A DNA stretch of 52,441 nucleotides from Aerophototrophica crusticola (GTDB lineage Bacteria > Pseudomonadota > Alphaproteobacteria > Azospirillales > Azospirillaceae), in the NCBI GenBank assembly GCA_001939945.1, contig MOEB01000030.1, positions 1-52,441 of the forward strand, written 5' to 3'. This document shows positions 1,359 through 33,938 of the stretch, one piece after another. Position 1 is the stretch's first letter; each line of letters starts with the position of its first letter. A program made the translations under genes and the position numbers. A model generated the notes under the pieces. The model saw only the letters and a list, made by a program, of their open reading frames with translations. It was not told the DNA's origin and did no database searches.

Positions 1359-1431
1359 CCGGCGGCGACCGCCGCCGCGCGACCGCGTGGTCGCGTGAGC
1401 CAAGCCGCGGATGCGGCGCCGGCGACTGAGG
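1359..1431 (+). repeat. Family A triple-hairpin repeat, copy A1
   Basis: Three tandem hairpins, each with a 4-base loop: GGCGGC-GACC-GCCGCC (1361-1376), CGCGACC-GCGT-GGTCGCG (1378-1395) and GCCGC-GGAT-GCGGC (1404-1417), followed by a GC-rich tail ending GGCGACTGAGG. The same design recurs at 10052, 15503 and 28580 with different but still paired stem bases, and in degenerate form at 7896 and 33891. This copy lies 76 bases before the start of the hybrid kinase gene, in the strand sense of that gene, so it could sit in its mRNA leader. It could also act as terminator of the efflux operon, though no T-run follows. Confidence 0.85.
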
Positions 1432-1443
1432 AACCGGATAGCG

Positions 1444-1475
1444 AGCCCTGTTTCCAGTTCCCTGGAAACAGGGCT
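1444..1475 (+). promoter_or_regulatory. Perfect 14-bp inverted repeat ahead of the hybrid kinase gene
   Basis: AGCCCTGTTTCCAG and its exact reverse complement are separated by a 4-base loop (TTCC). The right arm ends 32 bases before the ATG of the kinase at 1508. No T-run follows, so it is not a classical terminator. It could be an operator or a leader hairpin. Its inner core TGTTTCC/GGAAACA resembles imperfect inverted repeats upstream of flagellin (6880-6894) and of the XRE regulator (13942-13958). Confidence 0.7.
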
Positions 1476-1507
1476 AAGCTGGTTCCCGCATCGTTCGGCG
1501 GGGCTCC

Positions 1508-4500
1508 ATGGATCCGTGGCTGGTACTGGGTTTCTCCCTGATCTACCTGGCGGCGCTGTTCGGCATCGCCTGGCGGGGGGACCGGCTGGCCGCGGCGGCG
1601 GGGCCGTCGCTGGGGGAGAAGCGGGCGCCGCTGCTCTACGCCCTCAGCCTCGCGGTCTATTGCACGTCCTGGACCTTCTACGGCGCCGTGGGCCGGGCGG
1701 CCACGGGCGGGTTCGACTTCCTGTCCATCTATGTCGGCCCGATCCTGCTGGTGGGCTTCGGCTGGCCCATCCTGGCCAAGATGGTGCGGGTGGCGAAGGC
1801 GGAGAACGTGGTCTCCATCGCCGACTTCATCTCCGCCCGCTACGGCAAGAGCCGGGTGCTGGCCGCGCTGGTGACGGTCACCGCCGTGCTCAGCGTGCTG
1901 CCCTATTTCGCCTTGCAGCTCAAGGCCATCACCATCAGCCTGGAGGCCTTGGCCGGCGACCCGCTGGCGGGGGCCGGGCTGGACGTGCCGGGGCAGACCA
2001 CCTTCCTGGTCACCGTGGCCATGGCGGCCTTCGCCATCCTGTTCGGGGTGCGCAGCATCCACGCGAACGAGCACCACCGCGGCCTGATGTCCGCCATCGC
2101 GGCGGAGTCCCTGGTGAAGCTGGCGGCTGCCTTGATCGTGGGCGGCGTGATCACCTTCAGCCTGTCCGCCGGCCCCATCCAGCTGGTCGCCGACGCCGCC
2201 AACGACCCGCGGCTGGCCGAGGTGTTGAGCCCCGACCTGGACCTGGAATGGTGGGTCATCACCCTGCTGGCGGCCTGCGCCATCGTCTGCCTGCCGCGCC
2301 AGTTCCACGTGACTGTCGTGGAGAACACCCATGTGGGCGACATCCGCACCGCAAGCTGGCTGTTCCCGGCCTATCTGGTCGCCATCAACCTGTTCGTGCT
2401 GCCGGTGGCCTTGGCCGGCCTCGCCCTCTATCCCGACGGGTCGGTGAACGCCGACACCTTCCTGGTCACCATCCCGCTGGACCAGGGGCGGCCCTGGCTG
2501 GCGCTGATGGCCTTCATCGGCGGACTGTCCGCCGCCACCAGCATGGTCATCGTCGGTGCCGTGGCCCTCAGCACCATGGTCTGCAACGACCTGGTGGTGC
2601 CCGTCCTGATGGCGTGGAAGCCGGTGCTGCGGCGCTGGCAGGCGGACCCCAAGCCCCTGCTGCTGGCCGTGCGCCGGGTCTCCGTGGCGGCACTGCTGGG
2701 CCTCGCCTACCTCTATTACCTGCTGATCGGCAGCGTCTTCCCGCTCGCCACCATCGGCATCGTCAGCTTCGCCGGGGTGGCCCAGTTCGCGCCCGCCCTG
2801 CTGCTGGGCCTGTTCAATCGCCGGGTCACCAAGGCGGGCGCGGTGGCCGGGATCGGCGGCGGCTTCCTGGCCTGGATCTACACGGTGCTGCTGCCCAGCT
2901 TCGCCGTGGCCGGCATCGTGCCCGCCGGCTTCATCGGGCATGAGCCCTTCGGCCTGTCCTGGCTCAGCCTTTCCGGCCTGGGCGGGGTGCATGACCTGGA
3001 CACCCTGTCCCACGGGGCCATGACCAGCCTTGGCATCAACCTGTTCCTGCTGCTGGTGGTCTCCGCCCTGTCCAGCCAGTCGGAGCTGGAGAAGCAGCAG
3101 GCCCGCCGCTTCGTCTCCATGCGCCACGACACCGGGGACCGGCAGGCCTCCGTCAAGGGCGGCACCCTGGCCGACCTGTACGAGCTGGCCGCCCGCTATG
3201 TCGGCCGCCAGCGGGCGGAGGCTACCTTCCGGGAGCTGGCCCTGCTCCGCTCCGGCCCCGTGGGCAGCTTCGAGAGCGCCCTGCTGGTCCGGGTGGACGA
3301 GGAGGCGATCCGCGCCACGGAATGGCTGCTGTCCGGGGCCATCGGGTCCGGGTCCGCCCGTGTGGTGGTGGCCAGCCTGCTGTCCGACCGCCGCCTGTCC
3401 CGGCAGGAGACGCGCAGCATCATCGACGACGCCTCCCGCGCCATCCTGGACCAGCACCTGCTGCTGTCCACGACGCTGGAGCATGTGGGCAAGGGCATCT
3501 GCGCCTTCGACAGGAATTTCCGGGTGCTGGTCTGGAACCGCAGCTTCCTGGAACTGCTGGACTTCCCGGCGGAGCGGGTGGGCGTGGGCACGCCCCTGTC
3601 GGAGATCGTGGCCTATCTCCAGAGCCGCGGCGAGTATGGCCGGAACGGCGAGATCGAGACCCTGCTGACCCGCCGCTCCGACCCCCGCCGGGCGGGCCAG
3701 CCGGACGCCTACCACCGCATCCGCCCCGACGGGTCCGTGCTGGAGATCAGCACCAATCCCCTGCCCGACGGGGGCTTCGTCGCGGTCTATACCGACATCA
3801 CCGAGCAGTACCGCGCCCGCGAGGCGCTGGAGGAAGCCAAGGAGTTCCTGGAACGCCGGATCGAGGAGCGCACGGTGGATCTGGCCGCGGCGAAGGCGGA
3901 GGCCGACCGCGCCAACCTGGCCAAGACCCGGCTGCTGACCGCCGTCAGCCACGACCTGTTGCAACCGCTGCACGCCGCGCGGCTGTTCATCTCCGCCGCC
4001 TTGGACCAGCGCCCCGACCCGCTGATGATCCAGGCGGACGCCGCCCTGCGGTCGGTGGAGCATCTGCTGGGCGACCTGCTGGACGTGACCAAGCTGAACA
4101 CCGGCGTCGTCACGCCCAAGCGCGCCGTCGTGCGGCTGGAGGAGGTGATGCGCCCCCTGGCGGAGGAGTTCGCCGTGCTGGCCGGGCGCCACGGCTTGAA
4201 GCTGCGCTGGGTGCCGTGCAGCCTGTCGGTGGACACGGACCCGGTGCTGCTGCGCCGGATCCTGCAGAACTTCCTGGCCAACGCCATGCGCTATACCCCG
4301 TCGGGCGGCGTGCTGTTCGGCTGCCGCCGCCAGGGGGGCGTGCTGCGGGTGGAGGTGTGGGACACCGGGCCCGGCATCCCGCCGGAAAAGCAGGCGGAGG
4401 TGTTCAAGGAGTTCCGCCAGCTCGACACCGCCACGGGCGCGGAGAGCCAGCGGGACAAGGGCCTGGGCTTGGGCCTGTCCATCGTGGAGCGGCTGGCCGC

Positions 4501-5017
4501 CATGTTGGGCCACCGGGTCACCCTGCGCTCCACCGTGGGCAAGGGGAGCTGCTTCGCCGTGGAGGTGCCCATCGCCGCCATCGCGGCCCCCATCCGGCTG
4601 GCCCCCGGCGGCGCCCGGACCAAGGGGCTGGAAGGCACGCTGGTGCTGTGCGTGGAGAATGACGCGGCCATCGCCCAGGCCATGGCCGCGCTGCTGGCCG
4701 GCTGGGACTGCGACGTGGTCACGGCCCGCGACCCGGCCTCTGCCCTAACGGCCCTGGCCGGCCGCCGGCCGGACGTGGTGCTGACCGACTACCACCTGGA
4801 CGAGGGCGCCTCCGGCCTGGAGGTGCTGGCCGCCGTACGCCAGGCTTTCGACCCCGGCATCCCCGCTGCCGTCGTCACCGCCGACCGCGGCGAGGCGGTA
4901 CGTGATTCGGTCGCCGCCGCGGGGGCAAGGCTGGCCTACAAGCCGCTCCGCCCCGGGGCGCTTAGGGCCCTGCTGGGGCACCTGGTGGTGGAGGGGAAGC
5001 GGGGCCGGGCGGCGTGA
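1508..5017 (+). CDS. Hybrid sensor histidine kinase with SSS-type membrane domain, PAS and receiver (NahK/ErcS'/CbrA-like)
   Basis: A 1169-residue protein. Residues about 1-500 are a sodium:solute symporter-like membrane domain of roughly 12-13 helices (early motif YCTSWTFYGAVGRAA). A cytoplasmic linker and a PAS domain follow (about 650-770, ending GGFVAVYTDIT), then a coiled coil, then HisKA with the phospho-accepting His near residue 815 (AVSHDLLQPLHAARLF). An ATPase domain carries the N-box LQNFLANAMRYTP, the G1 box DTGPGIPPEKQAEVF and G2 GLGLGLSIVERLAA. The C-terminal receiver has its acceptor Asp near 1094 (DVVLTDYHLDEG). CbrA-type kinases share the symporter domain; the HDLLQPLHAARLF box is typical of the NahK/ErcS' group. 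The ligand is unknown. The LuxR response regulator convergent 18 bases downstream is a likely partner. Confidence 0.93.
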   Translation: MDPWLVLGFSLIYLAALFGIAWRGDRLAAAAGPSLGEKRAPLLYALSLAVYCTSWTFYGAVGRAATGGFDFLSIYVGPILLVGFGWPILAKMVRVAKAENVVSIADFISARYGKSRVLAALVTVTAVLSVLPYFALQLKAITISLEALAGDPLAGAGLDVPGQTTFLVTVAMAAFAILFGVRSIHANEHHRGLMSAIAAESLVKLAAALIVGGVITFSLSAGPIQLVADAANDPRLAEVLSPDLDLEWWVITLLAACAIVCLPRQFHVTVVENTHVGDIRTASWLFPAYLVAINLFVLPVALAGLALYPDGSVNADTFLVTIPLDQGRPWLALMAFIGGLSAATSMVIVGAVALSTMVCNDLVVPVLMAWKPVLRRWQADPKPLLLAVRRVSVAALLGLAYLYYLLIGSVFPLATIGIVSFAGVAQFAPALLLGLFNRRVTKAGAVAGIGGGFLAWIYTVLLPSFAVAGIVPAGFIGHEPFGLSWLSLSGLGGVHDLDTLSHGAMTSLGINLFLLLVVSALSSQSELEKQQARRFVSMRHDTGDRQASVKGGTLADLYELAARYVGRQRAEATFRELALLRSGPVGSFESALLVRVDEEAIRATEWLLSGAIGSGSARVVVASLLSDRRLSRQETRSIIDDASRAILDQHLLLSTTLEHVGKGICAFDRNFRVLVWNRSFLELLDFPAERVGVGTPLSEIVAYLQSRGEYGRNGEIETLLTRRSDPRRAGQPDAYHRIRPDGSVLEISTNPLPDGGFVAVYTDITEQYRAREALEEAKEFLERRIEERTVDLAAAKAEADRANLAKTRLLTAVSHDLLQPLHAARLFISAALDQRPDPLMIQADAALRSVEHLLGDLLDVTKLNTGVVTPKRAVVRLEEVMRPLAEEFAVLAGRHGLKLRWVPCSLSVDTDPVLLRRILQNFLANAMRYTPSGGVLFGCRRQGGVLRVEVWDTGPGIPPEKQAEVFKEFRQLDTATGAESQRDKGLGLGLSIVERLAAMLGHRVTLRSTVGKGSCFAVEVPIAAIAAPIRLAPGGARTKGLEGTLVLCVENDAAIAQAMAALLAGWDCDVVTARDPASALTALAGRRPDVVLTDYHLDEGASGLEVLAAVRQAFDPGIPAAVVTADRGEAVRDSVAAAGARLAYKPLRPGALRALLGHLVVEGKRGRAA

Positions 5018-5035
5018 CCCGCTGCCCTGGCGGCC

Positions 5036-5683
5036 TCACCCCTCCCCGGCCGGGGGTGGCGGGGCGAAGGCCAGGCGGCTGGCGACCAGGGCGGCCTGGG
5101 TGCGGCTGTGGACGCCTAGGCGGCGGAGGATGACGGTGACGTGGGCCTTCACCGTCGTCTCGGCCACGCCCATCTCGTACGCGATCTGCTTGTTCAGCTT
5201 CCCGGCGGCGATGCCGCCCAGCACGCGGAGTTGCTGCGGCGTCAGGCCCGCCACCACGGCGGCAAGGTCCGCCTCCTCCCCGCCCTGGTTGCCCGTCTCC
5301 GGCGCCCAGAGGGAACCGTCCAACACGGCCTGGATGGCATCGCCGATCTGGGTGATGGGGGCGGACTTGGGCACGAAGGCCGACGCCCCGTACTCCATGG
5401 CCCGCTGCACCGTGGCGGGGTCCTCCTGGGCGGAGACGACGATGACGGGGATGGCCGGGTGCTCGTTCCGCACCAGGGCCAGGCCGATCAGCCCGTTCAT
5501 GCCCGGCATGTGCAGGTCCAGCAGCACCGTGTCCGGCGGATCCCCCTTGTTCAGGGCCGACTCCACCTCCTCGAACCGGGAGGCCTCGACGATGTCGGCA
5601 TCAGGCAGGGACTGGGTGACGGACTGGCGCAAGGCCGCCCGCATCAACGGGTGGTCATCCGCGATCAGGATGCGCGTCGCCAT
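5036..5683 (-). CDS. LuxR/NarL-family response regulator
   Basis: A 215-residue two-component regulator. The receiver domain (residues 1-120) has the acidic pair in ILIADDHP, the acceptor Asp56 in VLLDLHMPGMNG and the conserved Lys in FVPKSAP. The C-terminal GerE-type helix-turn-helix begins LTPQQLRVLGGIAAGKLNKQ and continues with AETTVKAHVTVILRRLGV. I chose ATG 5683 because it leads straight into the receiver; an in-frame TTG at 5695 is possible, but its GGAGG would touch the start codon. It converges on the hybrid kinase with an 18-base gap, so cognate pairing is a reasonable inference. LuxR regulators paired with this kinase type in Pseudomonas control carbon and alcohol catabolism; the targets here are unknown. 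Confidence 0.9.
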   Translation of the reverse strand: MATRILIADDHPLMRAALRQSVTQSLPDADIVEASRFEEVESALNKGDPPDTVLLDLHMPGMNGLIGLALVRNEHPAIPVIVVSAQEDPATVQRAMEYGASAFVPKSAPITQIGDAIQAVLDGSLWAPETGNQGGEEADLAAVVAGLTPQQLRVLGGIAAGKLNKQIAYEMGVAETTVKAHVTVILRRLGVHSRTQAALVASRLAFAPPPPAGEG

Positions 5684-5845
5684 GCCGGACCCCAACCTCC
5701 CCCGATTGCCGCCCCGCCTTCAGCAGCGGGATCATTGCTTGGGGCGGCATCATGCCCCTTATTTGTATAATGGCAAGGACATTGCTTGAAGTTGCCCGTC
5801 AGCAGAAGGATATGCGCCCATTCCGCCCGCGCTATGGTCCCGGGC

Positions 5846-5878
5846 AAAAGAAATGGGGGCCGCCCGAAGGCGACCCCC
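5846..5878 (-). terminator. Rho-independent terminator of the flagellin gene
   Basis: Read on the minus strand: a 10-bp stem GGGGGTCGCC/GGCGGCCCCC (one G-T pair) closed by a TTCG tetraloop, followed by ATTTCTTTT. It begins 27 bases after the flagellin stop codon. Confidence 0.85.
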
Positions 5879-5905
5879 AGCAACCAGCCTCGCGGGGCGA
5901 AGCGC

Positions 5906-6757: not shown

Positions 6758-6859
6758 GGCTGTATCCTTCGTGGAGGGTTCATGTCCAAGCGCCTTCTGA
6801 CGCCGCCGCCCCGCACGGGTTCACCCGAGGGGGCTGGGGCTGATGCTGGCAGGCCGGGT

Positions 6860-6874
6860 TTAAGCCGGGGTAAA
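6860..6874 (-). promoter_or_regulatory. Possible CtrA-like site upstream of flagellin
   Basis: On the plus strand the bases read TTAA-GCCGGGG-TAAA, one mismatch from the alphaproteobacterial CtrA consensus TTAA-N7-TTAA. It is about 105-115 bases upstream of the flagellin ATG. CtrA control of flagellar genes is established in several alphaproteobacteria; here it is only a sequence resemblance. Confidence 0.3.
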
Positions 6875-6879
6875 ATTCG

Positions 6880-6894
6880 GTTCCATTTGGAAAC
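6880..6894 (-). promoter_or_regulatory. GTTTCC/GGAAC inverted repeat upstream of flagellin
   Basis: The plus strand reads GTTCC-ATTT-GGAAAC, an imperfect inverted repeat about 125 bases upstream of the flagellin start. Similar half-sites occur at 1449-1470 ahead of the hybrid kinase and at 13942-13958 ahead of the XRE regulator. A shared regulator is a hypothesis only. Confidence 0.35.
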
Positions 6895-7030: not shown

Positions 7031-7888
7031 ATGGCCACCAGATACCCCCTCCCCATCCTGCTGCTCTACCTCGCGGCCCTGGCCGCGGCGCCCGCTTACG
7101 CATGGGACGGACCCGCGCCGGGCCTCCCGGCCCCGATCGGCAGCCACGCCAACGGCTGCATCGCCGGGGCCGCCGCCCTGCCGGCAGAGGGTCCGGGTTA
7201 CCAGGCCGTCAACCCCGGGCGCCGACGCACCTTCGGCCACCCGGAGCTGGTGGACTTCGTAAAGGGCCTGGCCGCACAGTCGGCGGAAGCCGGCCTCGGC
7301 ACGCTCCGGGTCGGCGACCTGTCGGCTGCCCGCGGCGGCCGGCTGCCGGGGACGCACGCCAGCCACCAGACAGGGCTGGACGTGGATGTCTGGCTGGAGA
7401 TGGGCCGGGCGCCGCTGCCCCCGGGCATGCTGGACGGCTACGACTTCCCCCCGCTGGTGGACGCGGCGACGCGGCGGTTGGACCCGCAGCGCTACGGGCC
7501 GGCACAGACGGCCCTTGTCCGGCTGGCGACGGGGGACGGGCGGGTGACGCGGGTCTTCGTGAACCCGGCCATCAAGCTGGCCTTGTGCCAGAGCGCCGGG
7601 GAGGATCGGGACTGGCTGCGCAAGGTGCGCCCCTGGTTCGGCCACGCGGCCCACATCCATGTGCGCCTGGCCTGCCCGGCGGACGCGGCGGCCTGCGTGG
7701 ACCAGGGGCCGCCGCCGGAGGGGGACGGCTGCGGGGAGGAGCTTGCCGGCTGGCTGGAGCCGCCCCCCGGCACACCCCCGGCACGGCCACCGGCCCCGCC
7801 ACCCGAACCGCCGGCCGCCTGCCTCGACATCCTGGGCCTTGCAGGCGGACAGCCGGGCCCCACCCCCCAGCCGACCCCGGCCCGTTAG
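7031..7888 (+). CDS. mepA: Penicillin-insensitive murein endopeptidase
   Basis: A 285-residue exported LAS-type metallopeptidase that cleaves D-alanyl-meso-diaminopimelyl cross-links in peptidoglycan. Residues 1-24 form a signal peptide ending AAPAYA. The zinc-binding and catalytic motifs are present: SHQTGLDVDVWL (His and Asp ligands) and, near the C-terminus, HAAHIHVRLACP. The spaced LRVGDLSAARGGRLPGTHAS segment matches MepA. I chose ATG 7031 because it begins the signal peptide, although the frame is open far upstream across the flagellin region. The C-terminus is Pro-rich and low in complexity (about residues 240-285). It lies in the motility block; a wall-remodelling role during flagellar assembly is possible but not shown. 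Confidence 0.93.
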   Translation: MATRYPLPILLLYLAALAAAPAYAWDGPAPGLPAPIGSHANGCIAGAAALPAEGPGYQAVNPGRRRTFGHPELVDFVKGLAAQSAEAGLGTLRVGDLSAARGGRLPGTHASHQTGLDVDVWLEMGRAPLPPGMLDGYDFPPLVDAATRRLDPQRYGPAQTALVRLATGDGRVTRVFVNPAIKLALCQSAGEDRDWLRKVRPWFGHAAHIHVRLACPADAAACVDQGPPPEGDGCGEELAGWLEPPPGTPPARPPAPPPEPPAACLDILGLAGGQPGPTPQPTPAR

Positions 7889-7895
7889 GGGATAT

Positions 7896-7950
7896 CCCGC
7901 CGCGCGACCACGTGGTCGCGTAAGCCAAACCGTGGACGCAGTGCCGATAT
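7896..7950 (+). repeat. Family A repeat, partial copy A2
   Basis: It contains the middle hairpin as a perfect 18-bp palindrome (CGCGACCACGTGGTCGCG, 7903-7920) and the linker TAAGCCAAACC, but hairpin 1 is mostly missing and hairpin 3 is decayed. GATATC occurs on both sides (7891 and 7945). It lies between the convergent ends of mepA and the exported helical-repeat gene, where it could also work as a bidirectional terminator. Confidence 0.7.
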
Positions 7951-7984
7951 CAGGTCTGGCGGCAGGCCCCGCGGGGAGCCCGGG

Positions 7985-10207
7985 TCAGGGCGCTCGCGCC
8001 AACTCCCCCGCCTGCCGCAGAAGGGCCTTCAGCGACTCCGCCGTCACCGGCCCGTCCGTCGCCGGGGCCAGGGCGTGCAGGCGCTTAGGCCAGTCGGTCC
8101 CATCCAGGGATGACAGCCCGGCGGGATGTCCCTCCCCCGCCAGGATGCCCGCCAGGGCGAGGCGGACCGATTCTTCCCGTGACAAGGGGGCCTTGCCCGC
8201 CAGGGTACGGTAGGCGCCTGCCGCCTCCGCCCACTCCCCCAGCTGCCAATGGGCCAGGGCACGGGCCGACAGGGCGTCCGGGTCGGGCGTGGTGCCAGCC
8301 TTCTCCAGGGCCGCCCCCGGCTGGCCTTGGGCCACCAACAACCGGGCCTGTAGCGCCGGCGAGGGCGCAGGCAGCAAGGCCAGGGTCGCCTCGGCCCCGG
8401 CGGCATCCCCCTGGGCGAGCTGCGCCCGCGCGATGCCGGGGAGCAGCCCGGGCCGCTCCGCCTCCGGCACGGAGGCCGCCAGGGCTGCCCGCTCCTGCCC
8501 GGCGGCTACCACCATCCCGGCACCTGCCAGCAGGTCGGCATAGGCTTGGCGCAGGGTGCGGCCTTCCGGGCCGGGGGGCAGCAGGGGACGGCCGCGCTCG
8601 AACAGGGTGATGCGTCGGGCCAGGGGAAGCGACGCCCCCGGCTCCCCCAGCAGCCCGGCCAGCAGCACCCCGGACCGGGCCGTGTCCGCCGCCCCGGGGA
8701 ACCGGTCGGCCAGGACGCGCAGGGTGCCCAACGCCTCCACCAGCCTGCCCTCCCGCTGCTCCAGCGCCGCCCGGTGGGCCAGGACCTCGGCCTCCAACCC
8801 GGTGCCAGGCCAGTCCCGCATGGTCCCGTCCAGCAGTTCGCGCCAGACCGCGTCCGGCAGATCGCCGTTGAGGAAACGCTGCTCCGCCGCGAGCAGCCGT
8901 GCGCGGGCGGCGGCGGGGCCCGGCAGGGCCGCCGCCTTGTCCCATTGCGCCAGGGCCAGGGCGGCGCGGCCGGCGGTGGCATGCAGCCGGCCCACCAGCA
9001 GCAGCAACTGCGCCTGTTCCACCGGTGTCGGGTTGGCGGTTTCCACTTGGCGCGCGAACTCCCGGGCGAAGCCGTCAAGTCCGGCCTCCGCCGCCACGGC
9101 CAGCAGGTCCAGCCCCAGCGGGCGGCGGAATTCCGGTGGCTGGCCTTCCAGGGCCCGGGCCGCGGCGGGCAGGTAGGCCAGGGCCTGCTGCCCCTTGCCC
9201 CGCCGCTGCATCAGCACCGCCGCCCAGAGCGGCCCGTCGGCGGCCTTCAGCGTGTCAGGCGCCAGCAGCCAGTCGGCCGCCGGGTTGACCGGTTCCACCA
9301 GCACCGCCGCCACCGCGGCCAGGGGCTGCATGGGTTGTTCCGTCGAAAGGGACACGGCCAACGCCTCCGGTCCCAGGTCCCAGGCCAGCAGGAAGCGCGC
9401 CAGGGCCGCCGCATCCCCCGCCTGCCGCAGCCGGTTCCGCTCCGCCGCGAAGGGTGCGGTACGCCATGCCATGAGGTCCAACAGGGCCGGGCCGGTGCCC
9501 CAGGACGGGTCCGGCCGCGGCTTGGCCCGCCGCGCTTCCCCGGCCTTGGCCGCCGCCGGCGTAGGGGGCTCCGCGTCCACCGCGGCAAGGCCCTTGGCGA
9601 TGGCGTCACGGGCGAAGTCAGCGTCGCGGTTGGTGTCAGGGGCTGCGGGCGCCTCCCCCGCCGGGGCGGCTTGCGCCGGCTTGCGGCCGGGCACCGGGGC
9701 CGCGGTGACCCGCAGGATGGACTCGGTGCCCCGGCGCAACAGGCGCACCGCGGCACCGCATTCCGTGCTGACGACCAGCCTTCCCGGGTCGGCCTCCACC
9801 ACCCCGCGCACCCGGCGGGCGCCCGTGGCAACACCGCCCAGGTCCAGCCCGCCCGGCGCCTCCACCGACAGCACGGCCCCGCAGGGCTGGGCCTCCAGCC
9901 CGCCGACCCGGACGTCCCCGCCGGGAATGACCAGCTCCGTCACCCCGCCTTCCTGCCGGAAGGACAAGGGCGCCGGTGCCGCCAGCGCGGAGCCGGTGAG
10001 CAGGCTGGCCATGATGGCGGATGCCAGCGGCAGGGGCGCCCTGACGCTGGGGGCCGGCGACCGCCGGCCCGCGCCCCCATGGGCGCGCAAGCCAAGCCGC
10101 CAGATGGCGGCGCGAGCCTGCCCTGGCCCCCGAGCCGGGGGCGCCTGAGGGGGTGCCTGCTCGGCCACGAGCAAGCACCACGCATGCATCATGTTTCTCA
10201 TCGGCAA
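7985..10207 (-). CDS. Large exported alpha-helical repeat (TPR-like) protein of the flagellar block
   Basis: An open frame of 740 codons. After a hydrophobic stretch ending ALAAPAP (residues 57-77) comes a beta-rich segment (RQEGGVTELVIPGGDVRVGG) that looks AMIN-like, then an Ala/Pro-rich linker, then about 450 residues of repeated helix pairs of TPR type (QLLLLVGRLHATAGRAALAL, ALAHWQLGEWAEAAGAYRTL). The start is uncertain. The 5' end (10052-10150) is itself a family A repeat, so residues about 20-52 are repeat-encoded. Possible starts are TTG 10207, an internal TTG near residue 40, or ATG 10012, which would cut into the hydrophobic core. I see a periplasmic protein, possibly motor- or envelope-related from its position; I do not recognise a named family. 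Confidence 0.7.
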   Translation of the reverse strand: MPMRNMMHAWCLLVAEQAPPQAPPARGPGQARAAIWRLGLRAHGGAGRRSPAPSVRAPLPLASAIMASLLTGSALAAPAPLSFRQEGGVTELVIPGGDVRVGGLEAQPCGAVLSVEAPGGLDLGGVATGARRVRGVVEADPGRLVVSTECGAAVRLLRRGTESILRVTAAPVPGRKPAQAAPAGEAPAAPDTNRDADFARDAIAKGLAAVDAEPPTPAAAKAGEARRAKPRPDPSWGTGPALLDLMAWRTAPFAAERNRLRQAGDAAALARFLLAWDLGPEALAVSLSTEQPMQPLAAVAAVLVEPVNPAADWLLAPDTLKAADGPLWAAVLMQRRGKGQQALAYLPAAARALEGQPPEFRRPLGLDLLAVAAEAGLDGFAREFARQVETANPTPVEQAQLLLLVGRLHATAGRAALALAQWDKAAALPGPAAARARLLAAEQRFLNGDLPDAVWRELLDGTMRDWPGTGLEAEVLAHRAALEQREGRLVEALGTLRVLADRFPGAADTARSGVLLAGLLGEPGASLPLARRITLFERGRPLLPPGPEGRTLRQAYADLLAGAGMVVAAGQERAALAASVPEAERPGLLPGIARAQLAQGDAAGAEATLALLPAPSPALQARLLVAQGQPGAALEKAGTTPDPDALSARALAHWQLGEWAEAAGAYRTLAGKAPLSREESVRLALAGILAGEGHPAGLSSLDGTDWPKRLHALAPATDGPVTAESLKALLRQAGELARAP
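10052..10150 (+). repeat. Family A triple-hairpin repeat, copy A3
   Basis: Hairpins GCCGGC-GACC-GCCGGC (10053-10068), CGCGCCC-CCAT-GGGCGCG (10070-10087) and GCCGCC-AGAT-GGCGGC (10096-10111), then an extra CCCCCG-AGCC-GGGGGCG hairpin and the terminal GCGCCTGAGG. Compared with copy A1, bases on both sides of each stem have changed while pairing is kept. It lies between the divergent helical-repeat gene and flgF and overlaps the 5' end of the former reading frame. Confidence 0.85.
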
Positions 10208-12556: not shown

Positions 12557-12606
12557 GGTGTGAGATGACCCTGGCCAATCCCTTCGTTTCCGCCGACACC
12601 TTCATC

Positions 12607-12702
12607 GCTTCCCCCGCGAAGGCGGGGGTCCACAGTTCTGTGGCGACGGGGCCACTGCCAAGTGGGTCAAAAACCGTGGGCCCCCGCCTTCGCGGGGGAG
12701 GC
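12607..12702. repeat. Family B (SPAKAGVH) palindromic repeat, copy B1
   Basis: GCTTCCCCCGCGAAGGCGGG opens the left arm (12607-12634) and CCCCCGCCTTCGCGGGGGAG closes the right arm (12681-12700). Each arm is self-complementary and the two are complementary to each other, with a variable centre. Translated, the left arm reads SPAKAGVH. The element lies between flgA and flgH; its purine-rich right edge (GGGGGAGG) sits 10 bases before TTG 12712. Confidence 0.9.
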
Positions 12703-14693: not shown

Positions 14694-15473
14694 ATGTCCC
14701 GCACCTTCCAGGTCCTGATCGCCGACGATGCCCGCTACCAGCGGGAGATGGTGCGCCACGCCGTGCGCATGGTGGTGCCCGACGCCCAGGTGACGGAGGT
14801 GGACAATGGCCGCTGCGCCTTGGAGAAGGCGACGGCGCGCCCCTATGATTTGGTCCTGCTGGACCTGGAGATGCCCCACATGAACGGGGCGGACGTGCTG
14901 TACCGCATCAAGATGGACCGGCCGGACACGGTGGTGGGCCTGGTCACCGGCAACGGTGACGAGCAGGTGCGCCAGTCCGTCATCTCCCTCGGCGCCGACT
15001 TCTTCATCCTGAAGCCCTTCACCACGGGCGACATCCGGGCCGCCGTGGAACAGGGCCTGGCCGCCGCCATCCGGCTGGGCGCCAAGCGGGACGCGCGGGT
15101 GCTGGTGGCCGACGACAGCCGGACGATCCGGGAGGTGATGGCCGCCACCCTGCGGCTGATGGGCCTGCGCCACACGGTGGAGGAGGTGGCGGACGGCCGC
15201 GCCGCCCTGGACGCCTTCAAGCGCAACCGCCACGACCTTCTGTTCCTGGACGTGAACATGCCGGGGCTGACGGGGCTGGAAGCGCTGGCCCGCATCCGGG
15301 CCCTGGCGCCCAACGTCTTCGCCGCGCTGGTCACCTCCGACAGCGACCGCGACACGCTGGTGGCCGCCCGCACCCTGGCGGTGGACGGCTTCATCCTGAA
15401 GCCGGTGACGTCGGAGCGGCTGGGCCAGGTGGTGGACCGGTTCAAGAAGCGCTGGGCCGACCTGCCGGGTTAG
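14694..15473 (+). CDS. Response regulator with two CheY-like receiver domains
   Basis: A 259-residue protein made of two receiver domains and nothing else. Receiver 1 (residues 5-122) has VLIADDAR, the acceptor Asp in LVLLDLEMPHMNG and the Lys in FILKPFT. Receiver 2 (about 138-255) has VLVADDSR, LLFLDVNMPGLTG and FILKPVT, so both keep the catalytic set. There is no output domain, so it probably works by protein-protein contact or as a phosphate relay, for example at the flagellar switch or with a diguanylate cyclase. It lies 108 bases after the XRE gene on the same strand. A family A repeat (A4) begins 30 bases after its stop. Confidence 0.93.
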   Translation: MSRTFQVLIADDARYQREMVRHAVRMVVPDAQVTEVDNGRCALEKATARPYDLVLLDLEMPHMNGADVLYRIKMDRPDTVVGLVTGNGDEQVRQSVISLGADFFILKPFTTGDIRAAVEQGLAAAIRLGAKRDARVLVADDSRTIREVMAATLRLMGLRHTVEEVADGRAALDAFKRNRHDLLFLDVNMPGLTGLEALARIRALAPNVFAALVTSDSDRDTLVAARTLAVDGFILKPVTSERLGQVVDRFKKRWADLPG

Positions 15474-15502
15474 ATTGAGTTTACGCCCGGCGTGAACTCG
15501 AT

Positions 15503-15575
15503 CCGGCGGCGACTGCCGCCGCGCGCCCCCGTGGGCGCGTTAGCCAAGCCGCGGATGCGGCGCTGGCGCCTGAGG
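15503..15575 (+). repeat. Family A triple-hairpin repeat, copy A4
   Basis: Hairpins GGCGGC-GACT-GCCGCC (15505-15520), CGCGCCC-CCGT-GGGCGCG (15522-15539) and GCCGC-GGAT-GCGGC (15548-15561), then GGCGCCTGAGG. Hairpins 1 and 3 match copy A1, while hairpin 2 matches copy A3. It lies 382 bases upstream of kup in the same sense. Confidence 0.85.
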
Positions 15576-27038: not shown

Positions 27039-27043
27039 GGGCC

Positions 27044-28503: not shown

Positions 28504-28579
28504 CGGGCCTCCCCGGGGCAGCCTCAGGCGGACCAACCGCAACGGCCGATGGGCCGGCGCGTTCCGCCCCACGAACCTG

Positions 28580-28652
28580 GGCCGGCGACCGCCGGCCCGC
28601 GCACCCATGCGCGATCCAAATGCCGCCGGATGGCGGCGCCGGGCGCCTGGGG
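28580..28652 (+). repeat. Family A triple-hairpin repeat, copy A5
   Basis: Hairpins GCCGGC-GACC-GCCGGC (28581-28596), CGCGCA-CCCA-TGCGCG (28598-28613) and GCCGCC-GGAT-GGCGGC (28622-28637), then GGGCGCCTGGGGG. The middle stem has a sequence unlike the other copies yet pairs perfectly. It lies 160 bases upstream of the RNase J-like gene in the same sense. Confidence 0.85.
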
Positions 28653-28772
28653 GAGCACGGAAACCCTACATAGCGCCGCGGTACGGCGGAAGTAGGGCCA
28701 TTTCCCCGGTGCGTGCCGCGCCCACGCTGCCCAGCCCTGCGCCCGACGCGGTTGGCTCTTTTGCGCAAACGA

Positions 28773-28801
28773 TTGACAGGCAAACGGTTTGGCCCCATCT
28801 C
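28773..28801 (+). promoter_or_regulatory. Possible sigma-70-type promoter of the RNase J-like gene
   Basis: A consensus -35 TTGACA (28773-28778) followed after 17 bases by CATCTC, a weak -10. The position, just before the gene, is suitable if the mRNA leader is very short. Confidence 0.3.
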
Positions 28802-28811
28802 TCCACCACAG

Positions 28812-30344
28812 ATGAGTAACGAAGACTCCGGCATGCCCAAGGGGGCTGCTACCACCAAGGCGACTGTCACGCAGGTCTTGGCGGAAATGAACCGTGACGG
28901 TGGCACCGTCATTCCCTTCAACAAATACCGCGATTTCGGCAAGCGCTGGCCCGTGCCGGGGCATGGCGAGGTGCTGGTCGTGCCCCTGGGCGGCCTTGGC
29001 CGCATCGGCATGAACTGGACCCTGTACGGCCATGACGGCAAGTGGCTGCTGGTGGACGCCGGCATCGCCTTCCCGCCGGAAGAGATGGCGGACGAGGTCG
29101 ACGCCCTCGTCCCCGACCCGGCGTTCCTGGCCCCCATCGCCAAGCGGCTGGTGGGCCTGGTCGTCACCCACGCCCACGAGGACCATATCGGTGGCGTGGA
29201 CAAGTTGTGGCCCTACGCCATCACCTGCCCCATCTGGGCCACGCCCTTCGCCAAGGCCATGCTGGAGCGGCGGTTCGAGGAGGCGGGCAGCCTGGACGAC
29301 GTCACCATCCACAGCTTCCCCGTCGGGGGCAGCTTCGAGGTGGGGCCGTTCAAGGTGCGCAGCGTGCGCATGACCCACTCCATCCCCGAGCCGGTGGCCC
29401 TGGCCATCGGGACGGCGGCGGGCACCGTGCTGCACTCCGGCGACTGGAAGTTCGACCCGGACCCCCTGATCGGGGCGCCGACGGATTTCGACGCCCTGCG
29501 GGAGATCGGTGACCAGGGCGTGCTGGCCATGCTCTGCGACAGCACCAACGCCCACAAGGACCTGCCCACCACGTCCGAGGCGCAGGTGCGGGAGGCGTTC
29601 CGGCGCCTGTTCGCCCGGCGCAGGGGCCAGGTGGCCATCTGCGGCTTCTCCAGCAACGTGGCCCGTGTCGCCTCGGCCGGGTTGGCCGCGGCGGAAAGCG
29701 GGCGCCAGGTGGCCCTGGCCGGCCGGTCCATGCGGAACGCGGAGGAGACCGCCCGGTCCCTCGGCATCCTGGACGGCTACCCGAACTTCCTGGCGGAACC
29801 GTCGCACCTGAAGGGGCTGGAACGCTCCCGGGTCGCGCTGGTCTGCACCGGCGGCCAGGGTGAGGACAAGGCGGCGCTGGCCAAGCTCGCCCGCGGCGAC
29901 CGGCGCCTGCCCGCCTTCGGGGCCGGCGACACGGTGGTCCTGTCCGCCCGCATCATCCCCGGCAACGAGGAGGCGGTGGAGAAGGTCTGCTCGCGCCTGC
30001 GGTCCCGCGGGGTCGAGGTGCTGCACGGCAACGACAGCATCGACGGCCTGCCGCTCCACGTCTCCGGCCACCCCGGGGCGAACGAGCTGCGGGAGCTGTA
30101 CCGGTTGGTCCGCCCGCGCTACGCCATCCCCGTGCACGGCACGGAGATGCACTTGGCCGCCCATGCCCGCCTGGCGCGGGAAGAGGGGGTCGAGGCGGCG
30201 CTGGTCTGCGACGAGGCGGAGCTGATCCGCCTGACGCCGCACGGCGCCTGCGTGCTGGGCCGGGTGGAGGCCCCCATGCTGGCGCTGAGCCGCGACGAGA
30301 ACGGCAACCGCGTCCCCTACAAGCCCCAGGCCGCCCTGGCCTGA
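28812..30344 (+). CDS. RNase J-like metallo-beta-lactamase/beta-CASP nuclease
   Basis: About 510 residues. The N-terminal region has the RNase J opening VLVVPLGGLGRIGMNWTLYG and the zinc motif VVTHAHEDHIGGVDKLW (HxHxDH), followed by HSGDWKFDPDP and LCDSTNA. The beta-CASP part has CTGGQGEDKAALAKLARGD, where canonical RNase J usually reads TGSQGE, and the C-terminal His motif VHGTEMHLAAHARLA. The protein ends soon after, so it seems shorter than the usual 550 or more residues and lacks most of the C-terminal domain. ATG 28812 is given; ATG 28833 is an alternative and neither has a strong SD. It is RNase J or a diverged paralogue of it. Confidence 0.85.
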   Translation: MSNEDSGMPKGAATTKATVTQVLAEMNRDGGTVIPFNKYRDFGKRWPVPGHGEVLVVPLGGLGRIGMNWTLYGHDGKWLLVDAGIAFPPEEMADEVDALVPDPAFLAPIAKRLVGLVVTHAHEDHIGGVDKLWPYAITCPIWATPFAKAMLERRFEEAGSLDDVTIHSFPVGGSFEVGPFKVRSVRMTHSIPEPVALAIGTAAGTVLHSGDWKFDPDPLIGAPTDFDALREIGDQGVLAMLCDSTNAHKDLPTTSEAQVREAFRRLFARRRGQVAICGFSSNVARVASAGLAAAESGRQVALAGRSMRNAEETARSLGILDGYPNFLAEPSHLKGLERSRVALVCTGGQGEDKAALAKLARGDRRLPAFGAGDTVVLSARIIPGNEEAVEKVCSRLRSRGVEVLHGNDSIDGLPLHVSGHPGANELRELYRLVRPRYAIPVHGTEMHLAAHARLAREEGVEAALVCDEAELIRLTPHGACVLGRVEAPMLALSRDENGNRVPYKPQAALA

Positions 30345-30350
30345 TCTTCC

Positions 30351-30392
30351 CTCCCCCCTCTCCCCGCCGGGGAGAGGGTCGGGGTGAGGGGG
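30351..30392. repeat. Family C pyrimidine-rich hairpin repeat, copy C1
   Basis: CCCTCTCCCCGCCGGGGAGA is followed by GGGTCGGGGTGAGGGGG: a strong hairpin (CTCCCC-GCC-GGGGAG core) seven bases after the RNase J-like stop. Related units occur at 46741 and, inverted, at 46836. It may serve as terminator, though no T-run follows. Confidence 0.65.
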
Positions 30393-30500
30393 ACCGCATG
30401 CTTGCGCGAAGCGCTCCACGCCATTCCACCGGGAAGGATAACTTCCCGGCCGTCAATCCATGAGGTCAAGCCAGGACAATCCGCCTGTGGCCGGCCCAAC

Positions 30501-30595
30501 CGCTTCCCCCGCGAAGGCGGGGGCCCACAGTTTTAAATCCATTTCCCGCGCAGCCACGGTAAAAGAACCGTGGACCCCCGCCTTCGCGGGGGAGA
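30501..30595. repeat. Family B (SPAKAGVH) palindromic repeat, copy B2
   Basis: The left arm CGCTTCCCCCGCGAAGGCGG and right arm CCCCCGCCTTCGCGGGGGAG are the same as in copies B1 and B3, with a different centre of about 40 bases. It is fully intergenic, between the RNase J-like and beta-barrel genes. Confidence 0.9.
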
Positions 30596-30730
30596 CACAA
30601 AAGTTGCCAAGCCTGCTGAATTGGCGCCTGCCGGACAAGGTATGAGCTGTAGGGGTGCCGGGAGCAGGCCGAGCGTTGGTCCCCCCGCCTAACCCACCCT
30701 TAACCCTGCTGGGCGTATCCCACGCCCATC

Positions 30731-31849
30731 ATGGCCCCCCGATCCTTCCTCACCGCCCTTCTCGCGACGGTCCTCGCCAATCCCTTGGCGGCGGCCGATG
30801 GCGTGCCGCTGCACCGGGTGCGCCTGCATGGCGTGCTGGCGGCGCAGGACCTGCCCGGTCGCCGGGCCATGCCGGTCCCGGAGATCGAGGGCGAACGCCC
30901 CTGGGCGGAGAAGCCGGCGCCCCTGTCCCTGGGCACGTCTGAGGCCGGGCTCGGCCTTGGCGGCACTTGGGGCTGGCTTGAGCTGAGCCCCACCGGTGGC
31001 GCCATGGGTGCCTTGTCGGTGGGCGCGCCGACCCTGGGCATGGGCCAGGTGGACGCCCCGGCCGAGCGGGCGGAGGGTTATCCCTGGTTCCTGCGCGGCG
31101 CCCGCGACAGCGGCGGCGGGCCCAAGGCCGTCTGGTATTCCCCGGACCGGGGCGGGTTCCGTGCCGCCGCCAGCCTGGGTGCCGGCGGCCGGCTGGCGGG
31201 ACCGCGGCCCGATCCCCTGGGGCTGGAGGAGGAGGACGCGGCGGAGCTGCTGGACGGCGGCTTCACCAACGTCCGCGACCATGCCGGGGATGCCGACTAC
31301 CGCGGCGGGCTGGAACTGGCGCTGGCCTGGACCGGCGCCTTGGCCGGCGGGGAACTGACCCTGTCCGCCGCCCTCGCCCGCGGTGGCGACGGGCAGGCCC
31401 TGCGCCTGCGCACCGGCTGGCCGGGGACGCTGGACAGCGCCACCCTCCGCTACGGCACCCTTTCCTCGCGCCAAGCCGGGTTCAGCTTCACCCGCGGCCC
31501 CTGGACCCTGGGCGGGGCCGTGGTGGATGACGGGCACGGCAACCAGCCGTCCCATGTCCGCGGCCGGTTCTTCAACGCCTGGGAAGAGGAATGGGCGGAG
31601 CTGGACGAGGCCCTGCCAACCCGGCGCCTGCGGGGCTGGAGCCTGGGCCTGTCCCGGTCCGGTGAGGGGTGGGGCTTCGCCGGCACCCTCGCCGCCCGCG
31701 ACCTGCCCACCGGCAGGGTCAAGGCCCTGGGCGCGGGGCTGGAGCGCCAGTGGGAAGACGGCCCAACCCTGGCAGCCGACGCCGTGGCCTGGCGCAAGGA
31801 CGGGCAGGCGCAGGGCATGCTCCTGCTCCGGATCACCGCGCCGTTCTGA
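30731..31849 (+). CDS. Predicted outer-membrane beta-barrel (porin-like) protein
   Basis: A 372-residue exported protein. Residues 1-22 are a signal peptide (FLTALLATVLANPLAAA). The rest is made of alternating polar/non-polar strands with frequent Gly and aromatic girdle residues, and it ends in Phe (GMLLLRITAPF), the C-terminal signature for BAM-dependent insertion in the outer membrane. Examples of strand-like stretches are GLELALAWTGALAGGELTLS and SATLRYGTLSSRQAGFSFTR. About 14-16 strands could fit. I recognise no named porin family. It ends 6 bases before the convergent hydrolase gene. A CtrA-like site lies 28-42 bases upstream of the ATG. Confidence 0.75.
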   Translation: MAPRSFLTALLATVLANPLAAADGVPLHRVRLHGVLAAQDLPGRRAMPVPEIEGERPWAEKPAPLSLGTSEAGLGLGGTWGWLELSPTGGAMGALSVGAPTLGMGQVDAPAERAEGYPWFLRGARDSGGGPKAVWYSPDRGGFRAAASLGAGGRLAGPRPDPLGLEEEDAAELLDGGFTNVRDHAGDADYRGGLELALAWTGALAGGELTLSAALARGGDGQALRLRTGWPGTLDSATLRYGTLSSRQAGFSFTRGPWTLGGAVVDDGHGNQPSHVRGRFFNAWEEEWAELDEALPTRRLRGWSLGLSRSGEGWGFAGTLAARDLPTGRVKALGAGLERQWEDGPTLAADAVAWRKDGQAQGMLLLRITAPF

Positions 31850-31855
31850 CGAGGG

Positions 31856-32635
31856 TCAGAGGAACCGCTCCACGATGCCCAGGAACTCCACCGGCTTCTC
31901 CGCGTGCAGCCAATGGCCGGTGTCGGGGATCATCTCGATCTCCGCGGTCGGGAAATGGCGGCGGATGGCGTCATGGTATTCCGGCAGGATGTAGGTCGCC
32001 TTCGCCCCGCCCACGAACAGGGTCGGCCCGCCATAGGTGGCGCCCCCGAAATCCGGGAAGTCCACCAAATCGTCCATGGCCCGGTCCAGCACGTCCAGGT
32101 TCAGCCGCCAGCGCAGCTTCCCGTCCTCCGTCACCAGGTTCTGGCCCAGGAATCCGCGGATGCCGGCTTCCGGCACGGCGGGGGTGAGCTGGGCCTCCGC
32201 CTCCGCGCGGCGGCCGGCGGCGTCCAGGTCCACCGCCTTCATGGCCGCCACATAGTTGGCGTGGCTGTGGCCGTAGCTGACGGGGGAGATGTCGGCCACC
32301 ACCAGCTTTTCCACCCGATCCGGGTGGGCCAGGGCGCAAGCCATGGCCGCCTTGCCCCCCATGGAGTGGCCCAGCAGCTGCGCCCGCGCGAACCCCCGGT
32401 CGTCCATGAAGCGCAAGATGTCCGCCGCCATGGCCGGATAGGTCATCACGTCGGACCAGGGGCTGCCGCCATGGTTGCGCATGTCCAGGGCATAAACCGG
32501 CCGCCGCTCCGCCAGCTTCTTCAGGTGCCCCTGCCAGTTCCGGGCGGAACCGAACAGCCCGTGCATGACCAGCAGCGGGGTTCCCGGCCGGTCAGTGCCG
32601 GCTTCCAGGCTGGTGAGGGCGAGGGCGTCGGTCAT
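31856..32635 (-). CDS. Alpha/beta hydrolase (YbfF/ABHD11-like esterase)
   Basis: A 259-residue soluble hydrolase. The oxyanion segment is PLLVMHGLFGSARNWQGHLK, the nucleophile elbow LLGHSMGGKAAM (Ser) and the catalytic His is in PDTGHWLHAEKPVEF near the C-terminus. YALDMRNHGGSPWS and VADISPVSYG match the YbfF/ABHD11 esterase group, which act on short acyl esters. I chose ATG 32635 (MTDALAL); upstream codons are not conserved-looking. It ends 6 bases from the convergent beta-barrel gene and lies 84 bases downstream of a second, unrelated-looking hydrolase gene, possibly in the same operon. Substrate unknown. Confidence 0.88.
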   Translation of the reverse strand: MTDALALTSLEAGTDRPGTPLLVMHGLFGSARNWQGHLKKLAERRPVYALDMRNHGGSPWSDVMTYPAMAADILRFMDDRGFARAQLLGHSMGGKAAMACALAHPDRVEKLVVADISPVSYGHSHANYVAAMKAVDLDAAGRRAEAEAQLTPAVPEAGIRGFLGQNLVTEDGKLRWRLNLDVLDRAMDDLVDFPDFGGATYGGPTLFVGGAKATYILPEYHDAIRRHFPTAEIEMIPDTGHWLHAEKPVEFLGIVERFL

Positions 32636-32719
32636 GGTCGTTTCGTCCTGGTCGGTCACGGGCGGTTCCCGGCTGGATACACCAGGACCGCCCACCCCGA
32701 TCCAGGTTTTTCGGCCGGG

Positions 32720-33733
32720 TCAGGCCGCGACGCGCTCATGGCGGGCCGCCGCCTCGATGCGGGCCAGGTCGCCAACCAGGTCCGCCACCAGCTCCGGTTC
32801 CGCATGGTGCACCATGTGGCCGGTGCCGGGCACCAGCTCCAGCCGGCTGCCGGGGATCATCCGGTGCAGCCAGCGGGGATGGCGGGACAGGTCCACCACC
32901 CCGTCGTCGGTCCCGGCCAGGATGACGGTCGGCATCCGCACCCTCTCCAGCCGGGGCCGCAGGGCGGCGGCGCCCGGCAGCATGGCCACCGTGTCCTGGG
33001 CGGCGGCGCGGATCTGCCAGGGCCGCAGGGCGAGGGAGACGGGGAACCCTTCCCGGAACGCCTTGGGCACCTGCCGCGGGGCGAACAGCCGTTGGATCAG
33101 CTTGGGCGCGATGGCCCGGCCCACCAGGGGCGACAAGGTATAGCGCATCAGGTCGCCGATGCCGGGCACGGCCGGCCCGCCGAAGACGGGGATGTCGGCC
33201 CGCATCTCCGGGTAGTAATAGCCGGACATCAGCAGCAGGCCCGCCACCTCGTCCGGGTGGTCCAGGGCCATGTTCAGGGTGACCAGCGTGCCCCAGGAAT
33301 GGCCCACCAGGATGGGCCGCCGCACGCCCAGCCGCCGCAGCCCCTCCCATAGCACCCGGGCCTGGAGCGCCGCCGTCCAGGGCAGGCCGTGGGGCCGGCT
33401 GCTGTAGCCATAGCCGGGCCGGTCCACCACGATGACCCGGTGGTCCTGGGCCAGAAGGTCCACCACCCCGCTGCTGAGGAAATCCTGCACCATGGAGCCG
33501 TTGCCGTGGACCAGCACCACCGTCCGTGGCCCCTGCCCCCGCTCCACATAATGCAGCCGCGCCAGCCCCGCATCCACGAAGCGGCCCAGCGGCGGGTGGC
33601 GCTTTTCCGCCTGCCGCGCCCTTGCGTGGGTCACGGCCACCCAGGCCCCGGTGGCCAGCGCGCCCAGGGCCAGGGCACCCGCACGGGCGGGGCGGGCATC
33701 CTTACGGCTTGGGGGATGGGTGGGGGGCACCAT
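32720..33733 (-). CDS. Membrane-anchored alpha/beta hydrolase
   Basis: A 337-residue hydrolase. An N-terminal hydrophobic segment (about residues 15-35, GALALGALATGAWVAV) is probably a membrane anchor. The fold motifs are VVLVHGNGSMVQDFLSSGVV, VVDRPGYGYSSRP, the nucleophile elbow ILVGHSWGTLV (Ser) and the catalytic His in VPGTGHMVHHAEPELV. ATG 33733 has GGAG six bases upstream; the longer open frame runs into the terminator of the TonB gene. This type (HGNGSMVQDF...RPGYGYSSRP) is common among epoxide-hydrolase- or lipase-like proteins, but the substrate cannot be given. Confidence 0.87.
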   Translation of the reverse strand: MVPPTHPPSRKDARPARAGALALGALATGAWVAVTHARARQAEKRHPPLGRFVDAGLARLHYVERGQGPRTVVLVHGNGSMVQDFLSSGVVDLLAQDHRVIVVDRPGYGYSSRPHGLPWTAALQARVLWEGLRRLGVRRPILVGHSWGTLVTLNMALDHPDEVAGLLLMSGYYYPEMRADIPVFGGPAVPGIGDLMRYTLSPLVGRAIAPKLIQRLFAPRQVPKAFREGFPVSLALRPWQIRAAAQDTVAMLPGAAALRPRLERVRMPTVILAGTDDGVVDLSRHPRWLHRMIPGSRLELVPGTGHMVHHAEPELVADLVGDLARIEAAARHERVAA

Positions 33734-33825
33734 GGTCGTCTCCGTCCGATTCCTTGACCCAGCGCCAACCTTCGCAGCGCAGCATGGTTCCCCATCCTTA
33801 CCGCGTGGGGGCATGCGCCGACACC

Positions 33826-33865
33826 GAAAAGGAAAGGCGCCCGCACCGGGTGGGGTGCGGGCGCC
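33826..33865 (-). terminator. Rho-independent terminator downstream of the TonB receptor gene
   Basis: A perfect 12-bp stem GGCGCCCGCACC/GGTGCGGGCGCC with a 6-base loop, followed on the minus strand by TTTCCTTTTC. It lies about 115 bases after the TonB-receptor stop. Confidence 0.8.
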
Positions 33866-33890
33866 AGGGTTGGTCCCGGGAACGGGGTTT

Positions 33891-33938
33891 GGTGGCAGCC
33901 GCACAAGGCCTTGTGCAGCTGAAGGCCGGCGCCTGAGG
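33891..33938 (+). repeat. Family A repeat, divergent copy A6
   Basis: It has the family order GGTGGCAGCC, a central 16-bp palindrome GCACAAGGCCTTGTGC (33901-33916), AGCTGAAGGCC and the terminal GGCGCCTGAGG. The central palindrome differs entirely from the other copies, and hairpins 1 and 3 are reduced. It lies between the TonB-receptor stop and its terminator. Confidence 0.6.

Follow-up and report, generated by a model that had tools for sequence, protein, structure and literature searches.

What kind of element is a string of small hairpins in which the two sides of a stem change together from copy to copy? The question is raised by a 52,441-nt stretch of Aerophototrophica crusticola (Alphaproteobacteria; Azospirillaceae), positions 1 to 52,441 of the forward strand of contig MOEB01000030.1 (assembly GCA_001939945.1), referred to below as the window. 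A preliminary description had located four full copies of a triple-hairpin element in it, at 1359, 10052, 15503 and 28580, together with degenerate copies, and had proposed selection on RNA or cruciform structure, as in a transcribed leader element. The positions, stems and loops of the four full copies were verified in the sequence. The evidence given below indicates that the element is probably a non-autonomous mobile repeat of four to five hairpins, resembling miniature inverted-repeat transposable elements (MITEs) or repetitive extragenic palindromes (REPs).

The three hairpins first described are named B, C and D here, and together form the core. A covariance model of this core was built from the four window copies and six other copies; it holds no pairing for the D stem (its D brackets were offset by one column), and the pairing counts given below rest on fixed columns, on the copies' own folds or on a separately given structure. 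In the window, the model matched 1359-1431, 10051-10125, 15503-15575 and 28579-28651, all on the + strand, and in the whole A. crusticola genome (G000) it gave at least 150 matches at E up to 4.5e-4. The four window copies exceed chance, because a typed core pattern is found at 48 places in the genome (23 on the + strand, 25 on the - strand) and the pattern read backwards at 0. The element is also present in all 10 other genomes of the genus, with 13, 31, 41, 77, 85, 103, 115, 119, 121 and 121 copies among the matches listed, and 20 of 40 relatives have core-model matches at E up to 0.001. Under stricter filters, a family-wide search of 82 genomes found a match at E up to 1e-4 in 44, with per-genome counts of 12 to at least 60 in the genus, at least 60 in G015, which belongs to another genus of the family, and 0-16 in all others. 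G015 has at least 150 matches, 104 of those listed sharing one score; since many matches score equally and many lie at contig starts, the repeat probably breaks the assembly of this genome. A palindrome pattern run across 96 genomes of the class proved a weak probe (1 match even in the A. crusticola genome), and the exact element pattern gave 9 single matches in unrelated organisms among wider genome contigs, which are read as chance. The copies examined in detail are the best-scoring ones and thus a biased sample.

Gene context was counted for 127 copies in stretches of the A. crusticola genome (129 core-model matches minus the weak L097:3533, E 0.026, and a duplicate, L016 being L087:61), with genes called by a codon-usage script of our own; 125 copies had both neighbours and 2 lay at stretch edges. 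No core midpoint fell inside a predicted gene (0/127). Convergent genes flank 56 of the 125 copies and divergent genes 10, the former in clear excess (p = 7e-9), while between two same-strand genes 30 copies lie along and 29 against the direction of the genes (p = 1.0). In the longer stretches and the window, convergent pairs make up 41/93 gene pairs with a copy versus 40/320 without one (p = 3e-10), and 30/72 versus 8/115 when only gaps of at least 150 bp are counted (p = 2e-8). Altogether, 171 gene 3′ ends and 79 gene 5′ ends face copies. The observation that copies lie on the + strand upstream of + genes therefore stands for the four window copies and is lost genome-wide; the random orientation that the preliminary description had itself named as a refuting result is what was obtained. 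The leader-RNA reading fails because same-strand orientation is random and copies favour gene 3′ ends, and a leader or riboswitch with a fixed orientation toward its downstream gene was rejected. Instead, the placement matches that described for REPs (PMC3733652). More generally, a structured regulatory RNA would suit the strong covariation, the kept loops and the location of all four window copies upstream of + genes. It is difficult to reconcile with the random orientation, the few divergent placements and the scarcity of G.T pairs (see below), and relatives lack copies at the corresponding genes: in all 10 other genus genomes the 1.5 kb around the kup orthologue is free of core matches, as are the surroundings of four close flgF orthologues (0/4). 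Rfam gave no match at gathering score on any copy, in line with the earlier remark that no named family with such a layout was known; at E up to 1 the window has 6 weaker matches, all under the gathering score and none of them on a copy. A regulatory RNA is accordingly held to be highly improbable, its leader form being already largely refuted by the orientation counts.

Comparison with relatives (genomes and loci are cited by G and L numbers) shows the units to be present or absent at matching sites. Whole units, including the outer hairpins A and E defined below, are found occupied versus empty between G010 and G005 or G004, and between G002 and G009. An alignment of G010 and G005 (188 kb, 92% identity) contains 8 copies in G010 and 5 in G005 at 10 sites, of which 3 are common, 6 are one-sided with a shorter partner region and 1 is one-sided with a longer one. 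Over 45 kb aligned between G002 and G009, three of 12 G002 copies have a partner region, 1 common and 2 one-sided. Around kup, G010 is 96% identical to G004, and each of them is 92% identical to G005. The copy of L170 (G010), whose site is empty in both G005 and G004 (L208, L221), reads as a gain. The element is thus short, non-coding and present or absent between relatives, as MITEs are, and its polarity includes both gain and loss. At one further site, the element is present in G010 (L171), and in G005 (L209) its position is taken by another palindromic pair, CCCGGCGAAAGCCGGG....

The empty sites also delimit the unit. Hairpins A (e.g. 1330-1359) and E (1444-1475) belong to it because clean empty sites of relatives lack both, so that the three-hairpin layout is a real core inside a longer unit, usually of five hairpins. 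The order is A-B-C-AGCCAA-D-TGAGG-E, typically about 146 bp, with one extra hairpin on each side of the core, and observed inserts and units range from about 100 to 190 bp with four to five hairpins. The B loop is mostly GACC or GACT, the C loop is variable and often CCAT, and the linker ends in AGCCAA; hairpin D, with a loop that is mostly GGAT, is followed by GCC(C)GGCGNNTGAGG, a spacer and hairpin E. The two frequent core lengths are 73 nt, seen in the CGGCGGC type, and 76 nt, seen in the GGCCGGC type. An additional GC-rich hairpin stands between D and TGAGG in copy 10052 and in some others, and hairpin E is apparently missing from some copies. A hairpin A ending at the core was found in 87/127 copies, versus 1/127 windows further upstream and 0/127 mononucleotide shuffles, and the arms of these 87 fall into 20 greedy sequence clusters. 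That hairpin A comprises some 20 sequence clusters and yet abuts the core so often underlies a bolder reading, in which the element would be mobile DNA identified by shape: ordered hairpins that retain their small loops (GACY, GGAT) while the stems vary widely would fold as single-stranded DNA and be moved by an enzyme that is neither a RAYT (a Y1 tyrosine transposase) nor a known insertion-sequence transposase. This stronger version is considered unlikely.

The paired stem changes reported in the preliminary description are real and exceed those at other column pairs of the same copies. Among 77 distinct fixed-length copies, counted in fixed columns with some rows misaligned, 1503 stem cells comprise 1435 Watson-Crick pairs, 25 G.T, 10 A.C and 33 others. 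In 188 distinct copies from several genomes (201 distinct copies minus 13 without the CCAA anchor), single internal mismatches number 8 G.T, 4 A.C and 8 others versus 3510 pairs; G.T pairs are rare, and G.T departures are not clearly above A.C departures (p = 0.39). In a ranking by corrected mutual information, C and D stem pairs take all six highest places among the 666 column pairs of the 76-nt class (54 sequences), and C stem pairs the three highest among the 1378 of the 73-nt class (38 sequences); hairpin B covaries little, its pairs having ranks 21 to 67 and 18 to 608, respectively. Across 39 distinct 76-nt copies, 71 cells have changed on both sides versus 20.6 in shuffles (reached by 0/500), and 99.4% of cells pair versus 35-46% when slid. 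The same 39 copies show no excess in the number of pairs with two-sided change (7 versus 6.0 in shuffles, reached by 111/500) or of further pair types (12 versus 10.5, reached by 69/500), and no two-sided change in hairpin B. Perfectly paired stems occur as nine distinct C and fourteen distinct D sequences, some base-offset, the D stems mostly with loop GGAT; despite this variation, most copies retain the loops GGAT and GACC/GACT.

The fate of the hairpins after insertion was followed in eight copies common to two genomes, a repeat of the L164/L195 copy being left out. Changed positions amount to 8/620 in stems, 16/306 at unpaired bases and 342/5996 in flanks, the stems being those of one predicted fold in which a few long-range pairs are probably false. 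The rate of change is lower in stems than at unpaired bases (p = 7e-4), which themselves do not differ from flanks (p = 0.90). The slow stems imply that the hairpins have been held in place over that span, by selection or repair. Paired stems could also have been made and kept solely by template switching during replication, with no structural selection, and multibase compensating changes of this origin have a precedent (PMC8794818). In agreement with such an origin, D stems of the 39 copies switch as blocks of two adjacent pairs, 47-60 with 48-59 in 15/39 and 49-58 with 50-57 in 10/39, and no mismatched intermediates are seen. Template switching does not, however, explain why GGAT and GACC/GACT are kept while stems vary, and the shared copies have slow stems yet 0/8 pairs with a two-sided change; as the sole cause it appears rather unlikely.

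Another explanation, which is compatible with mobility, is that the inserted hairpins act in both directions as transcript ends or decay barriers at gene 3′ ends. The excess of 3′ ends facing copies and the slow stems of the shared copies are in its favor, as is a comparison by eye of L163 (G010) with L202 (G005), in which the element end CTAG apparently supplies the stop codon of the flanking gene and leaves this gene a few codons shorter. Tracts of five T on the downstream side, or of five A on the upstream side, lie within 100 bases of only 3/127 copies, the level of random positions (2%); 7 of the 10 sites compared between G010 and G005 differ, so few genes can depend on a copy; and promoter avoidance alone would yield an equal bias. 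A function of this kind is best regarded as a tentative possibility.

The ends of the unit bear on how it might move. In one subfamily, 17 A. crusticola copies share one A arm and have the ends TACC...GGTA. For 14 of them (the script found no right end in the other three), the ends all read ...A/TACC-like and GGTA/T..., with a T three bases to the left in 12/14 and an A three bases to the right in 12/14; the flanking 3-mers are identical in 7/14 copies versus a permuted mean of 2.9 (p = 0.006). Young copies of this subfamily are thus probably flanked by short TNA target repeats. Elements of the IS1031 group of IS5 as a rule duplicate 3 bp of TNA sequence (PMC12016507). In a second subfamily, GAGC...GCTCTA, the insert follows TA or TG and its last bases are TA (G010:37442, G005:160726; L163, L160, L170). 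The sole PF13340 gene of the A. crusticola genome was rejected as the parent transposase, its ends being different. A classical REP or BIME moved by a RAYT would resemble the element in copy number, intergenic or 3′ location and palindromes (PMC3733652), and G015, which is rich in copies, has two Y1_Tnp genes. Nevertheless, Y1_Tnp (PF01797) has no match in 10/11 genus genomes, that of A. crusticola included, the single match, in G010, being weak (24.5 bits at a cut-off of 23), and the core model gave only one weak match near Y1_Tnp genes at 10 loci (18.4 bits, E 0.032). Of the unpaired tags that mark the foot of a REP palindrome, GTAG or CTAC occurs in 4/127 cores, and around hairpin A, 11 of 127 copies have GTAG and 3 have CTAC, versus 3 and 13 in a control window. 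The CGTC tag fares no better: CGTC or GACG occurs anywhere in the core in 24/127 copies but is absent from the foot of each of the consensus hairpins B, C and D, and around hairpin A the counts are 13 and 20 of 127 versus 23 and 35 in the control window. Movement by a RAYT is thus rejected as highly improbable.

For the mobile repeat that we favor, the following course can be proposed. An enzyme supplied in trans would move the element, most likely cutting at TNA in the manner of IS1031-group IS5 transposases, and insertions would survive mainly at gene 3′ ends because they do the least harm there. As for the cruciform or other DNA structure that the preliminary description had allowed for, the hairpins may be kept as folded DNA, required during movement and then retained in place at gene ends, and template switching, which rewrites both arms at once, may partly maintain them. 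Several observations weigh against this account. Loss also occurs: the L164 and L166 copies of G010 are shared with G005 and absent without a scar in the closer G004 (L212, L213), and thus read as losses, and internal-deletion remnants are found in the partners L135, L197, L198, L199, L201 and L220, the other species having the fuller unit. TNA is compatible with only 3/8 junctions, and each of these has either a single altered base or an empty site that is not clean: G010:65603 has TAA on the left, AAA as the right copy and TAA at the empty site; G002:24239 has TTA, TTG and TTA, respectively; and G010:194894 has TCA on both sides of a site that is not clean when empty. The repeated TATGGC at G010:75942 is ambiguous, and G002:21604 and G005:54302 gave no clear reading. 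In the GAGC...GCTCTA subfamily a clean duplication is not seen, the right end being TA even where the empty site has TG (G005:160726, L160), and end sequences vary from subfamily to subfamily. No transposase with matching ends was found in a search limited to PF01797 and PF13340. Finally, the maintenance of stems in place was deduced from just 8 shared pairs, none of which has a two-sided change.

The features of the window copies are collected in Table 1. The neighbor labels of the preliminary description agree with Pfam results for the window genes: the neighbors of copy 1 encode an HlyD-type protein on one side and a hybrid histidine kinase on the other, copy 2 is flanked by a gene that has no Pfam match and by one for a flagellar FlgE/F/G-type rod protein, copy 3 lies between genes for a response-regulator protein and a K+ transporter, and copy 4 between genes for a rhomboid protein and an RNase J-like protein. 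As to the degenerate copies proposed earlier, that at 7896 was recovered as a remnant of C, linker and decayed D, and that at 33891 as a 3′ remnant of tail and E (200 shuffles were scored for comparison), whereas that at 45355 is at best a short A-B piece (score 19, shuffle maximum 14). The window also contains a second dispersed palindromic family, TTCCCCCGCGAAGGCGGGGGTCCACAG and an inverted partner, at 12592-12702, 30487-30593 and 38426-38535, which resembles the CGTC-type REPs of Alphaproteobacteria as described in PMC3733652.

Table 1. Parts of the element and its remnants in the window, with the basis of each assignment
Feature	Position	Strand	Basis
Copy 1, hairpin A	1330..1359	+	sequence, fold, similar hairpins in other copies
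Copy 1, hairpin B (loop GACC)	1360..1377	+	sequence, fold
Copy 1, hairpin C (CGCGACC/GGTCGCG)	1378..1395	+	sequence, fold, pairing counts
Copy 1, linker TGAGCCAA	1396..1403	+	
Copy 1, hairpin D (loop GGAT)	1404..1417	+	sequence, fold, pairing counts
Copy 1, tail GCCGGCGACTGAGG	1418..1431	+	
Copy 1, hairpin E, perfect 14-bp stem	1444..1475	+	sequence, fold
Copy 2, hairpin A (CCAGCG...CGCTGG)	10024..10050	+	sequence, fold
Copy 2, core B-C-D, GGCCGGC type	10051..10111	+	sequence, fold, core model
Copy 2, extra GC-rich hairpin and TGAGG tail	10112..10150	+	sequence, fold
Copy 2, hairpin E	10152..10179	+	sequence, fold
Copy 3, hairpin A	15473..15503	+	sequence, fold
Copy 3, core B-C-D and tail	15504..15575	+	91.5 bits, core model
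Copy 4, core B-C-D and tail	28580..28653	+	50.4 bits, core model
Degenerate copy: C, linker, decayed D	7877..7954	+	42.1 bits, core model
3′ remnant: tail and hairpin E, GGCCGGC type	33924..33969	+	local alignment score 43, shuffle maximum 20

Among known systems, the rhizobial RIME and the pneumococcal BOX are mosaic palindromic intergenic repeats, and the element is like them in general description. Among the literature entries listed for Azospirillum or Niveispirillum repeats, palindromic mosaic elements and RIME, no title or abstract opening describes the element, most subscription papers lying outside this coverage. GTAG and CGTC REPs are palindromes of 20-40 bp, or dimers of them, bearing the GTAG or CGTC tag, and the CGTC type is mainly alphaproteobacterial and seemingly without a dedicated transposase (PMC3733652). 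The element shares with both types the many palindromic copies, the intergenic location, mostly between convergent or unidirectional genes, and the proximity to 3′ ends, but it is an ordered string of hairpins with neither tag as a consensus. In REPs with a RAYT, complementary changes preserve the palindromes, and TnpA-REP proteins bind the folded single-strand REPs (PMC2817692, PMC8266576). Palindromes of the element are likewise kept by complementary changes, as in these REPs and REPINs; unlike them, it has no GTAG guide and lies in a host genome without a Y1_Tnp match. With MITEs of the IS1031 group (IS5) it has in common the probable TNA duplication in one subfamily, the short inverted ends TACC...GGTA and the non-coding size, but no parent insertion sequence was found, and a hairpin array takes the place of the two terminal repeats. 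We read the element as a mobile palindromic interspersed repeat, set apart by the ordered arrangement of its hairpins and by the strength of its covariation.

Where paired changes are combined with conserved loops, a functional RNA is usually regarded as strongly supported. Since an equal covariation signal arises here from a randomly oriented repeat that comes and goes between species, genome scans for RNA families can be misled if they rely on covariation alone. With the occupied and empty sites of close relatives, movement, the maintenance of hairpins and any effects on gene 3′ ends can be tested directly, and these sites may lead to an enzyme that moves RAYT-less repeats, a point described as open for CGTC REPs (PMC3733652).

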